NCBI RefSeq assembly: GCF_000380185.1 | Contig: NZ_KB904747.1 | Span: 62,001-126,000 of the forward strand | Source of the DNA: Thiofilum flexile DSM 14609 | GTDB taxonomy: Bacteria > Pseudomonadota > Gammaproteobacteria > Thiotrichales > Thiotrichaceae | Direction: 5' to 3' | Length of the DNA stretch: 64,000 nt | Part shown: positions 41,530-48,042 of the stretch, one piece after another | How positions within the stretch are numbered: the first letter of the stretch is position 1 | Layout: each line of letters begins with the position of its first letter | Program-made: the position numbers and the translations under genes | The notes under the pieces: model-generated | Database searches by the model: none | What the model was told of the DNA's origin: nothing | The model's input: the letters and a program-made list of their open reading frames with translations, nothing else

Positions 41530-41853
41530 TTAGTGGGGTGGGCGTTGGCTTTTTTCTTCCAAGCCCGATAAGCCAAACCGACGCGCTAATTCATTTAATA
41601 CCGCATCAGGATGTAAATTCTGTTGTGCTAATAATACTAAGGTATGAAACCATAGGTCGGCTACTTCATACACGATTTTATCCGGTACGCCATCTTTAGC
41701 CGCCATGACGGTTTCCGTCGCTTCCTCACCAATTTTCTTGAGAATGCTATCTAGACCTTTATGGTAGAGGGAGGCAACATAAGAGCTATCTTTATCAGCC
41801 CCTTTGCGTTGCTCTAGTACATCCGCTAAGGCGGTCAAAATCGATTCATTCAT
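41530..41853 (-). CDS. hisE: phosphoribosyl-ATP pyrophosphatase
   Basis: Second step of histidine synthesis. The 107 residues have the MazG-like pattern [16 protein letters not shown] and [10 protein letters not shown]. It is HisE alone, with no HisI cyclohydrolase domain. The ATG at 41853 is preferred to the TTG two codons upstream. It lies 24 bases after the AAA+/M41 gene and before tatA. Confidence 0.94.
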
Positions 41854-41877
41854 AGTCAAAGCTCATACCTATCCCGT

Positions 41878-43755
41878 TTAATGACCTTGTACAGCAGCTA
41901 ATTTCGCATCATAAGTAGGAATATGTAAGTGACCTTCGGGTTTAACTTCCACACTAATGCCATGCTGAGCCGCTAAGTCAGCCGTTACTGAGCTATCTAA
42001 CTGCCCTTTTTGGGCTAATTGTAAGGATAAGCTTTGTAATAGCAGAATATGACGACTCAATAGCTCACGGGTCTCACTAACTAACCGCATCATCATTTTT
42101 TCTACGTCCATATCGGTCACATCACGATTCATCGTATAAGCATGATGATCTAGGGTGTAGGTCGCTTGAAACTCATCATCAAAACCGTATTTACGCACAT
42201 AGTCGAGAGCCAATACCGTTGCTTGTTCACGATCATTTTCGCGCCCCGTTGAAGCATCTAGGGAGCCAAAAATAATTTCCTCAGCTAAACCACCGGCGAG
42301 ATAGACCTTGATCATATCCAGTAGGGTACGTTTAGTACGATGGATTTGATGGGGGAAAGTAAAGCCCCCCGAATAGCTACTTGCTACCTTACTTTGTAAT
42401 TGTAAGGGAACTAGACCAAACAACACCATATAGACTACCGCATGCCCTGATTCATGCACACTAATATTAGCCACCGCCGCTTGTTGATTCGTTTGGCGAA
42501 TTTTATCAATGCGGCCTGAGTACGCATAGGAGAAGTCTGTATCGCCGACCTTAGCCTCAATCTTTTGCTCTGCTTCATTAAAGTGCAGATAGATTGTGGT
42601 TTCACCATGCGTCAACGCATGTAACAGCATTTTAGAGAGATTCATTTCTAAAATATCGGTCACACTCGAAAAGACTGGGCGCACCCCTTGTACCGGAAAT
42701 ACACCATTCCGATAAATCAAGCGAGCAATACTGTCATCTAAGGTCAATTGCACCCCAGTATGCTCGAAAGTTTCGCGGCAAACCCGCTCAATCTCACGTT
42801 GAATCAGCGTCTCAAAGTCTTGTTTTCTAAGACTTGGGTAGATCAGATGAATATTACCAAACCGCGCGACTTGTTCGGGGCGGAATTTATTCATCAGCGC
42901 TTCTTTTACATCCATGAGCGTCACCTTAGTGGTGAAGGCATGGAAAATATCCGCATCCACATCCGCTTCCGAGGCTTGAGTCGCCATATGGAAAGCATCA
43001 TCTAAATTACCTGAAATCAGAATCAGGGTTTTAGAGTGATTAATCGGTTCGTAAATCGCTTTTTGCCGCTTAGCAGACATGACTAAATCGACCATTTCGT
43101 CTTCTGTCATGTCGATGAGGTCTTCAACATTCGCATCTAAATTCAGCGCTTTGCGTAATTCCAAGGCTTCCCACATGCTTAAATAGACGGTTTCTTCTTC
43201 AACCTCTTCGCCTTTATTGCGTTTACGTTGAGTCTCTTTACGGCGTTGGAAGTAACCCATGAGGAAGTTGTCTAGATTATCGCGGTGCTTTTTAGACAGG
43301 CGACCATCAGACAGTAGCTCCCAAAAATCCATAAACTTGGTTTGGCCTAAAGGCTTACCATCAGTATCAATAGTGTTGAAGCGCTGAATTTCATCAAATA
43401 GCACAATAGCAGGCTTACCATCATGTAAGTCATGGCTATCTAGTACGGATGAAATAGAGGAGTGCCACAGTGTTTCGTCCACATTCGATAGCTCTACTTC
43501 TACAAAACGATCTTGGAAATGAAGGCTTTTTACGAGTTTACGCACGAGATCGGTTTTACCAACACCCGTCATACCCCAGAGATTGACAATCACGGGGCGT
43601 TTGAGCAGGTCGGGGATTAAGTACCACACCTGGATATAATCCACCAGGTCGTCAATAATCTTATCAATCCCCACAAAATGTTGTTTGAGGACGGTTTTAG
43701 CTTCCTCTAGTTTTGCTTTGCGTTCTGCAATCAGTTGGCGATCTAATTTGAGCAT
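41878..43755 (-). CDS. AAA+ (Clp-type) ATPase fused to an M41 (FtsH-type) zinc protease domain
   Basis: 625 residues, no membrane helix. The N-terminal AAA+ module has Walker A GMTGVGKT (61-68), Walker B IVLFDE (to D121-E122), sensor 1 ILISGN (245-250), an arginine-finger region FRPEQVARFG (291-300) and sensor 2 GVRP (357-360). This order and the C-terminal small domain resemble ClpA/ClpB/ClpX, not FtsH. A charged insert fills about residues 150-230. The protease part begins near 425: HESGH at 434-438 is the zinc motif, AGGLAEEIIFGS (487-498) and TGRENDRE with candidate third ligand D508 follow FtsH. It lies 23 bases from hisF and 24 from hisE, so it is in the his operon. A soluble energy-dependent protease is the natural reading; substrates are unknown. 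Confidence 0.85.
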   Translation of the reverse strand: MLKLDRQLIAERKAKLEEAKTVLKQHFVGIDKIIDDLVDYIQVWYLIPDLLKRPVIVNLWGMTGVGKTDLVRKLVKSLHFQDRFVEVELSNVDETLWHSSISSVLDSHDLHDGKPAIVLFDEIQRFNTIDTDGKPLGQTKFMDFWELLSDGRLSKKHRDNLDNFLMGYFQRRKETQRKRNKGEEVEEETVYLSMWEALELRKALNLDANVEDLIDMTEDEMVDLVMSAKRQKAIYEPINHSKTLILISGNLDDAFHMATQASEADVDADIFHAFTTKVTLMDVKEALMNKFRPEQVARFGNIHLIYPSLRKQDFETLIQREIERVCRETFEHTGVQLTLDDSIARLIYRNGVFPVQGVRPVFSSVTDILEMNLSKMLLHALTHGETTIYLHFNEAEQKIEAKVGDTDFSYAYSGRIDKIRQTNQQAAVANISVHESGHAVVYMVLFGLVPLQLQSKVASSYSGGFTFPHQIHRTKRTLLDMIKVYLAGGLAEEIIFGSLDASTGRENDREQATVLALDYVRKYGFDDEFQATYTLDHHAYTMNRDVTDMDVEKMMMRLVSETRELLSRHILLLQSLSLQLAQKGQLDSSVTADLAAQHGISVEVKPEGHLHIPTYDAKLAAVQGH

Positions 43756-43778: not shown

Positions 43779-44552
43779 TTATAGGCGCATTTCAATGCCT
43801 TGCTCGGCCATAAATGCTTTTGCCTCACCGATAGTATGTTGCCCAAAGTGGAAAATACTGGCGGCTAATACCGCATCCGCTTTTCCTGTTAAAATACCAT
43901 CAGCTAAATGCTGGAGTGATCCCACACCTCCTGAGGCTATGAGGGGGACATTGACGCGCTCATTCAGCGCCTGCATTAATTCTAGATCAAAGCCGCTCTT
44001 TGTTCCGTCTCGATCCATGCTGGTGACGAGTAATTCCCCTGCACCGAATTCAACCATTTTTTCCGCCCAAGCTAGCGCATCAATGCCTGTACCTTTACGC
44101 CCGCCGTGGGTGAAAATTTCCCATTTTAAGGGTTCATCAGGGGCATTAACTCGTTTGGCATCAATCGCTACGACAATACATTGCGAACCAAAATAGTCAC
44201 TAGCTTCACGGACAAAGTCGGGGTTAAAAACAGCCGCTGTATTAATAGACACCTTATCTGCGCCCGCGTTTAACATGCGACGAATATCATCTAGTTTCCG
44301 AATCCCGCCCCCTACGGTGAGAGGGATGAATACTTGAGAGGCGACTTGTTCAACCATATGGGCCATGGTTTCACGATCATCAGAACTCGCGGTAATATCT
44401 AAGAAGGTAATCTCATCGGCCCCCTCGCGATTATAACGGGCTGCAATTTCAACCGGATCACCCGCATCACGAATCCCGACAAAGTTCACCCCTTTCACCA
44501 CACGTCCATTATCGACATCTAGGCAGGGAATAATACGTTTAGCTAAACCCAT
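43779..44552 (-). CDS. hisF: imidazole glycerol phosphate synthase, cyclase subunit
   Basis: A TIM-barrel cyclase that takes ammonia from HisH. The 257 residues begin [21 protein letters not shown]; the phosphate loops are [10 protein letters not shown] and IASGGVGS, and catalytic Asp residues are in CLDVD and VVAIDAK. It starts three bases after hisA ends. hisH is not in the window. Confidence 0.97.
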
Positions 44553-46608: not shown

Positions 46609-46847
46609 TGTTAGAAACCCTTAGCCACACGATTCGTCAAGCCCGCCGCGCTCAAGGCTTAACTCAACAGCAATTAGCCAACCTTTGTGGTTTAGATCGA
46701 ACCACCATTGGAGCCTTAGAGCGGAATAACTACCCTGATCTAGGTATTCGCAAAGTAGAAATGGTGCTGAATATATTAGGCAAAGAGCTTTGTAGTCGTG
46801 ATAGAAGCCTACCGACCTTAGATGAGTTGCGGGGCATTTATGGCTGA
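46608..46847 (+). CDS. hipB: HipB-like XRE-family HTH antitoxin
   Basis: 79 residues with HTH QARRAQGLTQQQLANLCGLD (about residues 11-30) and TTIGALERNNYP, the recognition part. The ATG at 46608 fits better than the TTG at 46590, which lies in the operator-like repeat. It overlaps the hipA start by eight bases. Confidence 0.86.
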   Translation: MLETLSHTIRQARRAQGLTQQQLANLCGLDRTTIGALERNNYPDLGIRKVEMVLNILGKELCSRDRSLPTLDELRGIYG

Positions 46848-48042
46848 TATTGATGTGTATTTGGGGCATGATGAGCAGCCATTATTTAGCGGGCGGCTTC
46901 AAAAAGAGGCGCATGAACATGTGTTTAGCTATCAACCTCATGCTACCGAGGCGCTATCTCTTACTATGCCCCTACGGGTAGCGAGCTATCACTATTCCGA
47001 ACTCCATCCGATTTTTCAGATGAATCTGCCCGAAGGTGCCCTACGCTGGGCGCTAGAGCAGATGACAGCAAAGCACTATGGCAGTGATGATTTAAGTGTA
47101 TTGGCATTATTAGGTCGCCACCAAATCGGGCGTTTGGCGTATAGCGTGGCAGGCCAACCGTTGCCCCTATCCACAGAGCAGCCATTCACCTTAAATCAAT
47201 TAATTAGCAGTACGGATGTGGATTTATTCGCGCAATTACTAGCGCGTTATGCGACTTATTCGGGAGTGGCGGGGGTACAGCCTAAAGTTCTTATGCCCTT
47301 ACAACAGCACCTGACCCTACCTTTAGGCCATTATATTGTAAAAACATGGGCAAAGGATTATCCCCATTTAGCTTGTAATGAATATGTATGCCTAAGTATC
47401 GCACGAGCTGCTGGTTTGGAAGTCCCTAATTTTTATCTGAGTGATAATGCTCAATTACTGATTACGGAGCGCTTTGATTTAACCCCTGAGGGTATTGCAT
47501 TGGGGTTTGAAGATTTTTGTGTATTGCAGGGTAAAGGTACTAAGGCTAAATATGATAGTTCTTTAGAGGCTTGTACCCATACAATTCGTCAATTTGTATC
47601 GGCTAACCAACAGGCTCAAGCCTTAGCTGATTTTTATAAGCTGACTTATTTGAATATACGAGTGCGAAATGGGGATGCACATTTAAAAAATAATGGGGTG
47701 CTGTATTCTGCTTTAGTGGATTATCACAGTGGGGTGTTGCCGAATACTGAGCGTAAATTAGCGCCTATCTTTGATATTGTCAGTACTGTACCTTATTTAC
47801 CTAAGGATTCGATGGCACTGTTATTAGGTGGTTCTAAACGCTGGCCTAAGCGGAAAGTGCTGCATCAATTCGCCCGCCAGCATTGTGGCTTGAGTCTAAA
47901 AATGATTGAGCAGATTGAGGCTGAGGTGGAGGGTGCTCTTGCAAGTCAATTAGGTTTATTAGAAAGCTTAGCGAGTCAACATAGTAATTTTGCTCCGTGG
48001 GCGGAGCGTATGAGGGCATTATTAGAGATACCTTTGTTATAA
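46840..48042 (+). CDS. hipA: HipA-like Ser/Thr kinase toxin
   Basis: 400 residues. The first part is the HipA N-domain (FQMNLPEGALRWALEQ), followed by the kinase fold with YIVKTWAKDYP, LLITERFDL, the catalytic loop RNGDAHLKNNG and the metal motif LAPIFDIV. The motifs are intact. This is the normal hipB-hipA order. ATG 46840 (MADIDVYL) is preferred to the GTG or TTG upstream. It shares little with the HipA at 31793, so the two loci arose separately rather than by recent duplication. Confidence 0.88.
   Translation: MADIDVYLGHDEQPLFSGRLQKEAHEHVFSYQPHATEALSLTMPLRVASYHYSELHPIFQMNLPEGALRWALEQMTAKHYGSDDLSVLALLGRHQIGRLAYSVAGQPLPLSTEQPFTLNQLISSTDVDLFAQLLARYATYSGVAGVQPKVLMPLQQHLTLPLGHYIVKTWAKDYPHLACNEYVCLSIARAAGLEVPNFYLSDNAQLLITERFDLTPEGIALGFEDFCVLQGKGTKAKYDSSLEACTHTIRQFVSANQQAQALADFYKLTYLNIRVRNGDAHLKNNGVLYSALVDYHSGVLPNTERKLAPIFDIVSTVPYLPKDSMALLLGGSKRWPKRKVLHQFARQHCGLSLKMIEQIEAEVEGALASQLGLLESLASQHSNFAPWAERMRALLEIPLL

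Follow-up and report, generated by a model that had tools for sequence, protein, structure and literature searches.

The gene between hisF and hisE in the window (the whole 64,000-nucleotide stretch of Thiofilum flexile DSM 14609 analyzed here) encodes a 625-residue protein, hereafter Clp-M41, in which a Clp D2-type AAA+ module is joined to an M41 peptidase, and our best reading is that it represents a new motor-peptidase pairing among the AAA+ proteases. M41 peptidases are usually tied to a membrane-bound motor of the FtsH type. Reviews list five E. coli enzymes of ATP-dependent proteolysis, namely ClpXP, ClpAP, HslUV, Lon and FtsH (PMC9020784). The first-pass annotation of this DNA had proposed an undescribed fusion, and the searches agree with that proposal: no description of Clp-M41 was found in the open-licence literature, a sequence search of solved structures returned no such architecture, and NCBIfam had no fitting family, its FtsH and ClpB models matching different halves far below their cut-offs. 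The soluble, ATP-dependent proteolysis that was proposed along with it is what we infer from this architecture.

The open reading frame begins with ATG, and the Clp-like AAA+ module and the M41 module were confirmed with every motif at the residue originally named (Table 1). Pfam matched M41 at residues 429-542 (E=1.1e-16), ClpB_D2-small at residues 309-383 (E=3.8e-6) and AAA with E=2.8e-6, each above the gathering cut-off. Members of the FtsH family carry an N-terminal transmembrane domain (PMC9020784). The maximum 19-residue hydropathy of Clp-M41 is 1.46 (1.0 within the first 70 residues) versus 2.3-2.6 in FtsH, so no transmembrane helix is evident from the protein sequence, as had been suggested.

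Table 1. Clp-M41, its motifs and the adjoining his genes, in window coordinates
Feature	Position	Strand	Basis
Clp-D2-type AAA+/M41 fusion protein, 625 aa	41878..43755	-	ORF, Pfam, family alignment
Clp D2-type AAA+ module with ClpB_D2-small-like lid, residues 1-405	42541..43755	-	Pfam, profile, tree, structure
M41 peptidase module, residues ~412-625	41881..42522	-	Pfam, profile, alignment
Walker A GMTGVGKT, residues 61-68	43552..43575	-	K67 same in 31/31 members
Walker B acidic pair D121-E122	43390..43395	-	Invariant, 31 members
Helical insert of ~84 aa, residues 153-235, Walker B to sensor 1	43051..43299	-	Alignment, model
Sensor 1 N250 (SGN 248-250)	43006..43008	-	Invariant, 31 members
Arginine finger R298 (FRPEQVARFGN)	42862..42864	-	Invariant; matches Clp FLNRID motif by position
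Sensor 2 R359 (GVRP 357-360)	42679..42681	-	Invariant, 31 members
HESGH zinc motif, residues 434-438	42442..42456	-	H, E, G and H the same in 31/31 members
Third zinc ligand D508	42232..42234	-	Alignment with E. coli FtsH D492; invariant
hisF, directly upstream of Clp-M41	43779..44552	-	Context
hisE, directly downstream of Clp-M41	41530..41859	-	Context

Among 84,980 species genomes scanned, 45 loci matched, and almost all of them carry a full-length relative; at one (L042) the match was in two pieces only. Orthologues were recovered from Thiothrix (70-71% identity), from Bacteroidota (Chryseobacterium, Neolewinella, Fibrella, Arcicella and MAGs; 54-62%) and from cyanobacterial MAGs (58-63%), and genomes closely related to that of the window carry copies at 61-71%. 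More distant members, at 27-35% identity, came from three sources: a different family within the same class (L065), other Bacteroidota (L087-L089) and two IMG/VR contigs (L062, L063). At least three phyla share the architecture, and the orthologues of identical layout, along with the divergent members elsewhere, indicate that the two halves form one conserved protein and not a chance fusion. The family is rare and patchy: it was found in two of 398 genomes of the window's phylum, one being the window's own, in five of 395 of the phylum of Neolewinella, including the search-centre genome, and, among 292 genomes of the phylum of L009, in the search-centre genome only. Six sampled genomes of the window's taxonomic family, the window's included, carry the gene. 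Identity near 57% across phyla, combined with this patchy distribution, suggests horizontal transfer of the genes; misbinning of the cyanobacterial copies is possible since these come from MAGs.

Conservation extends to the catalytic residues of both halves, as had been claimed for the single protein. Ten positions (K67, D121, E122, N250, R298, R359, H434, E435, H438 and D508) are invariant in the 31 aligned members, down to 27% identity, and all 31 are matched by Pfam M41; the hallmark of an AAA+ protease, intact motor and peptidase residues in a single chain, is present throughout these 31. D508, named together with HESGH in the first-pass annotation, aligns with E. coli FtsH D492, the third zinc ligand of that enzyme, and by this alignment the ligand is present in Clp-M41. 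Its absence, or a motor falling inside FtsH, would by the terms of that annotation have defeated the claim of a new fusion class, and neither was observed. Values of dN/dS were 0.02-0.10, with both halves constrained wherever dS was measurable, synonymous sites being saturated for several pairs, including every pair with the window gene. Both the AAA+ and the M41 halves are under purifying selection. Clp-M41 is a single-copy gene in the window's genome, which also encodes an ordinary FtsH as well as proteins of the ClpA, ClpB, ClpX and HslU types, making Clp-M41 an additional enzyme.

The kinship of the motor with Clp D2 domains emerged from profile scores and from the tree. The family AAA profile scored 39-50 bits against ClpB D2 and 20-39 bits against ClpA D2, compared to 17 for E. 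coli Lon, 10-13 for ClpX and HslU and less than 5 for the FtsH AAA domain. In the maximum-likelihood tree the family AAA module did not fall inside FtsH but grouped with ClpA/ClpB D2 (support 92/97), with FtsH separate, and the AU test rejected a tree forcing the family together with FtsH (p=0.0024). The idea of an ordinary FtsH with a misread AAA domain was rejected, since the profile scores, the AU-tested tree and the structural comparison all spoke against it. The exact sister of the family AAA module is uncertain in this tree, because the branches are long. Among the best matches to the AAA profile was a 399-aa, single-AAA Clp-like protein (L115; G003 contig 1, ~1028349) at 50 bits; it appeared as a weak sister of the family, on a long branch and with unsure placement. 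It differs from Clp-M41 in lacking M41 and in retaining GYVG. The M41 part of the family profile matched FtsH structures at 1e-18 to 1e-23, and in the M41 tree the family formed a clade apart from the 16 FtsH sequences compared. Such a separate clade would fit one ancient fusion, and an unsampled FtsH donor of the M41 half is possible.

The AF2 model used was built from 31 sequences (pLDDT 81.7) and replaced a 20-sequence model with a pLDDT of 70. Residues 2-406 matched the D2 domains of ClpC, ClpA and ClpB, and Skd3, with Z of 20-22.5 and rmsd of 3.1-4.3 Å. The lid domain runs straight into the helix bearing HExxH in the model; how the domains sit relative to one another is uncertain (pTM 0.57), and confidence is low in part of the insert and in loops 457-463 and 527-539. 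The helical insert, a family-specific feature 83-119 aa long across the members, is bounded by short strands (152-153 and 238-239) where the pre-sensor-1 hairpin would lie; an adaptor or substrate role for it is conceivable. The Clp pore motif GYVG is absent from the alignment of 31 members, and the FtsH motif FVG is absent from the pore region of all of them. A Trp or Tyr at the position of W97, near the expected pore place, is present in 28 of the 31 and is missing from three divergent members. With GYVG and FVG missing and this aromatic residue not universal, substrate threading appears less certain, and it is here, in the unusual pore loop, that the proposed protease mechanism is weakest. 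Docking to ClpP by an IGF/L loop is a feature of ClpA, ClpC and ClpX, and ClpB also lacks the loop. No match to the IGF/L motif was found after sensor 1 (residues 252-300) in the 11 members inspected.

Clp-M41 can be set against three known groups. FtsH and the i-AAA and m-AAA proteases are likewise single chains with M41 C-terminal to AAA+, HExGH, a distal Asp and a short link between AAA and protease; Clp-M41 differs from them by its Clp D2-type AAA domain, the lack of an evident transmembrane helix and of FVG, the insert, and its separate M41 clade among the sampled FtsHs. Of the defining features of the FtsH family, an M41 domain with HExxH and the third-ligand Asp is present, whereas a transmembrane domain (hydropathy), an FtsH-type AAA domain (profile, AU test) and FVG were not found. 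With the D2 domains of ClpB, ClpA and ClpC and with Skd3, the closest profile and structural matches, the protein shares the AAA large and lid fold and the sensor and arginine finger motifs, and it has the defining D2-type AAA+ module with a ClpB_D2-small lid of the Clp/Hsp100 group. In contrast to these proteins, it has one AAA ring without an N-domain or D1, a covalent protease of its own and a pre-sensor-1 insert, and it lacks the IGF/L loop and GYVG. Lon is also a soluble single-chain AAA+ motor (HCLR clade) with a peptidase, but has a Ser-Lys peptidase and an N-terminal domain.

The gene lies in the order hisA-hisF-[Clp-M41]-hisE-tatA-tatB-tatC. The his operon setting noted in the first-pass annotation is correct as to position, but it is lineage-specific and uninformative about function. 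Little or no sequence separates hisF from hisE in three relatives without the gene (L135-L137), against about 550 bp in two others (L132, L134). In one Thiothrix species, T. lacustris, the gene is located outside the his cluster, its neighbors in other phyla are unrelated, and the neighborhood comparison found no operon partner conserved across phyla. The his position is therefore a local, lineage-specific insertion that gives no clue to function. A functional tie to histidine synthesis was rejected on the grounds of the three relatives with closely spaced hisF and hisE, the T. lacustris site and the unrelated neighbors. The gene is probably co-expressed with the his genes, which says nothing about its substrate; promoter and terminator scans did not exceed shuffled expectation. 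A HipA-like kinase gene lies near the his cluster on the opposite strand (window 46822-48042). In Chryseobacterium (L014:6892-10577), Clp-M41 has a DUF4407 gene as its immediate upstream neighbor, and the next gene downstream encodes a phage tail-collar domain.

Several copies are found in other settings. In the divergent Bacteroidota branch L087-L089 (L138, L139, L140), a WYL-WCX regulator gene is adjacent or one gene off in all three cases; a GmrSD/SspE-like gene follows one copy, a PD-(D/E)XK nuclease gene lies beside one, and AbiEii is near one. These neighbors suggest a defence setting for the branch. PADLOC gave weak matches to the AAA part only (e.g. DolB, PDC-M37B), and Clp-M41 was rejected as a known defence protein. 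On IMG/VR contig 3300037225_000673 (L126:8347-13044), YqiJ-like and SPFH/Band_7 (flotillin-like) genes lie directly upstream of Clp-M41. SPFH proteins are partners of FtsH. On a 392-kb IMG/VR contig (L127:3031-8911), the genes that come after Clp-M41 on its strand are a small one, a Cas3-like helicase gene and a DevR/Csa2-like gene, with a thymidylate synthase gene nearby. The phage nature of the two contigs is unproven, because no terminase was found on either with PF03237 and phrog_2 was unspecific. Plasmids and annotated phages gave FtsH-type fragments but no Clp-M41 copies, and predicted viral structures included FtsH-like, Clp-like and Lon-like proteins with no fusion evident by name.

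We consider it probable that Clp-M41 is a soluble, single-chain, ATP-dependent zinc protease, most likely hexameric, in which a Clp-type motor feeds an M41 ring. Hexamer formation, threading and proteolysis are proposed by analogy with FtsH and the Clp enzymes (PMC9020784, PMC12994072), and a cytosolic location is proposed as well. Six subunits would form an AAA+ ring of Clp/Hsp100 D2-type domains and, with M41 following the lid in each subunit, an M41 ring would lie beneath the motor, the arrangement known from FtsH. ATP would be hydrolyzed through Walker A and B, sensor 1, R298 acting in trans and sensor 2, driving the unfolding of cytosolic substrates and their threading into the M41 chamber, where the putative zinc site of H434, E435, H438 and D508 would cut them. 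Such an enzyme could be described as FtsH minus the membrane, or as a Clp motor independent of ClpP, which would no longer be needed because the docking loop is absent and the peptidase is covalently attached.

Other readings were weighed against this soluble protease. Loss of the membrane anchor from a diverged FtsH, with an AAA domain Clp-like in appearance only, could explain why the generic Pfam AAA model matches residues 59-130 and why the best whole-chain Foldseek matches are FtsH; Clp D2 is nevertheless favored by the ClpB_D2-small lid, by the profile scores, by the tree with its AU test and by the structural Z, leaving this reading hardly credible. Clp-M41 might instead be a chaperone or remodelling ATPase whose M41 ring serves structure or regulation and carries out little proteolysis, much as in the FtsHi pseudo-proteases; inactive M41 paralogues do exist in plants (PMC8197885), and the pore motif of Clp-M41 is unusual. 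We regard this as very unlikely, given HExGH and D508 in all 31 members, residues that pseudo-proteases are expected to lose, and the strong purifying selection on the M41 half.

Recruitment to the membrane by an SPFH/flotillin-like or DUF4407 partner, making the protein a functional FtsH relative without a transmembrane helix, would agree with the genes directly upstream on the one IMG/VR contig (SPFH/Band_7, YqiJ-like) and in Chryseobacterium (DUF4407), but such neighbors are not common to the lineages and none adjoins the window's gene, and this reading seems quite improbable. A broader proposal, that the family makes up a class of its own among soluble AAA+ proteases, spreading horizontally and divided into specialised branches, with a WYL-regulated, nuclease- or restriction-like-linked Bacteroidota branch active in phage defence and with copies in large phages, is doubtful.

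As a natural and conserved chimera of a Clp motor and an M41 peptidase, Clp-M41 shows that these modules are exchangeable in evolution. The protein offers a direct test of the coupling of a Clp-type motor to a covalent zinc peptidase chamber, and it may serve biochemistry as a convenient soluble M41 protease.
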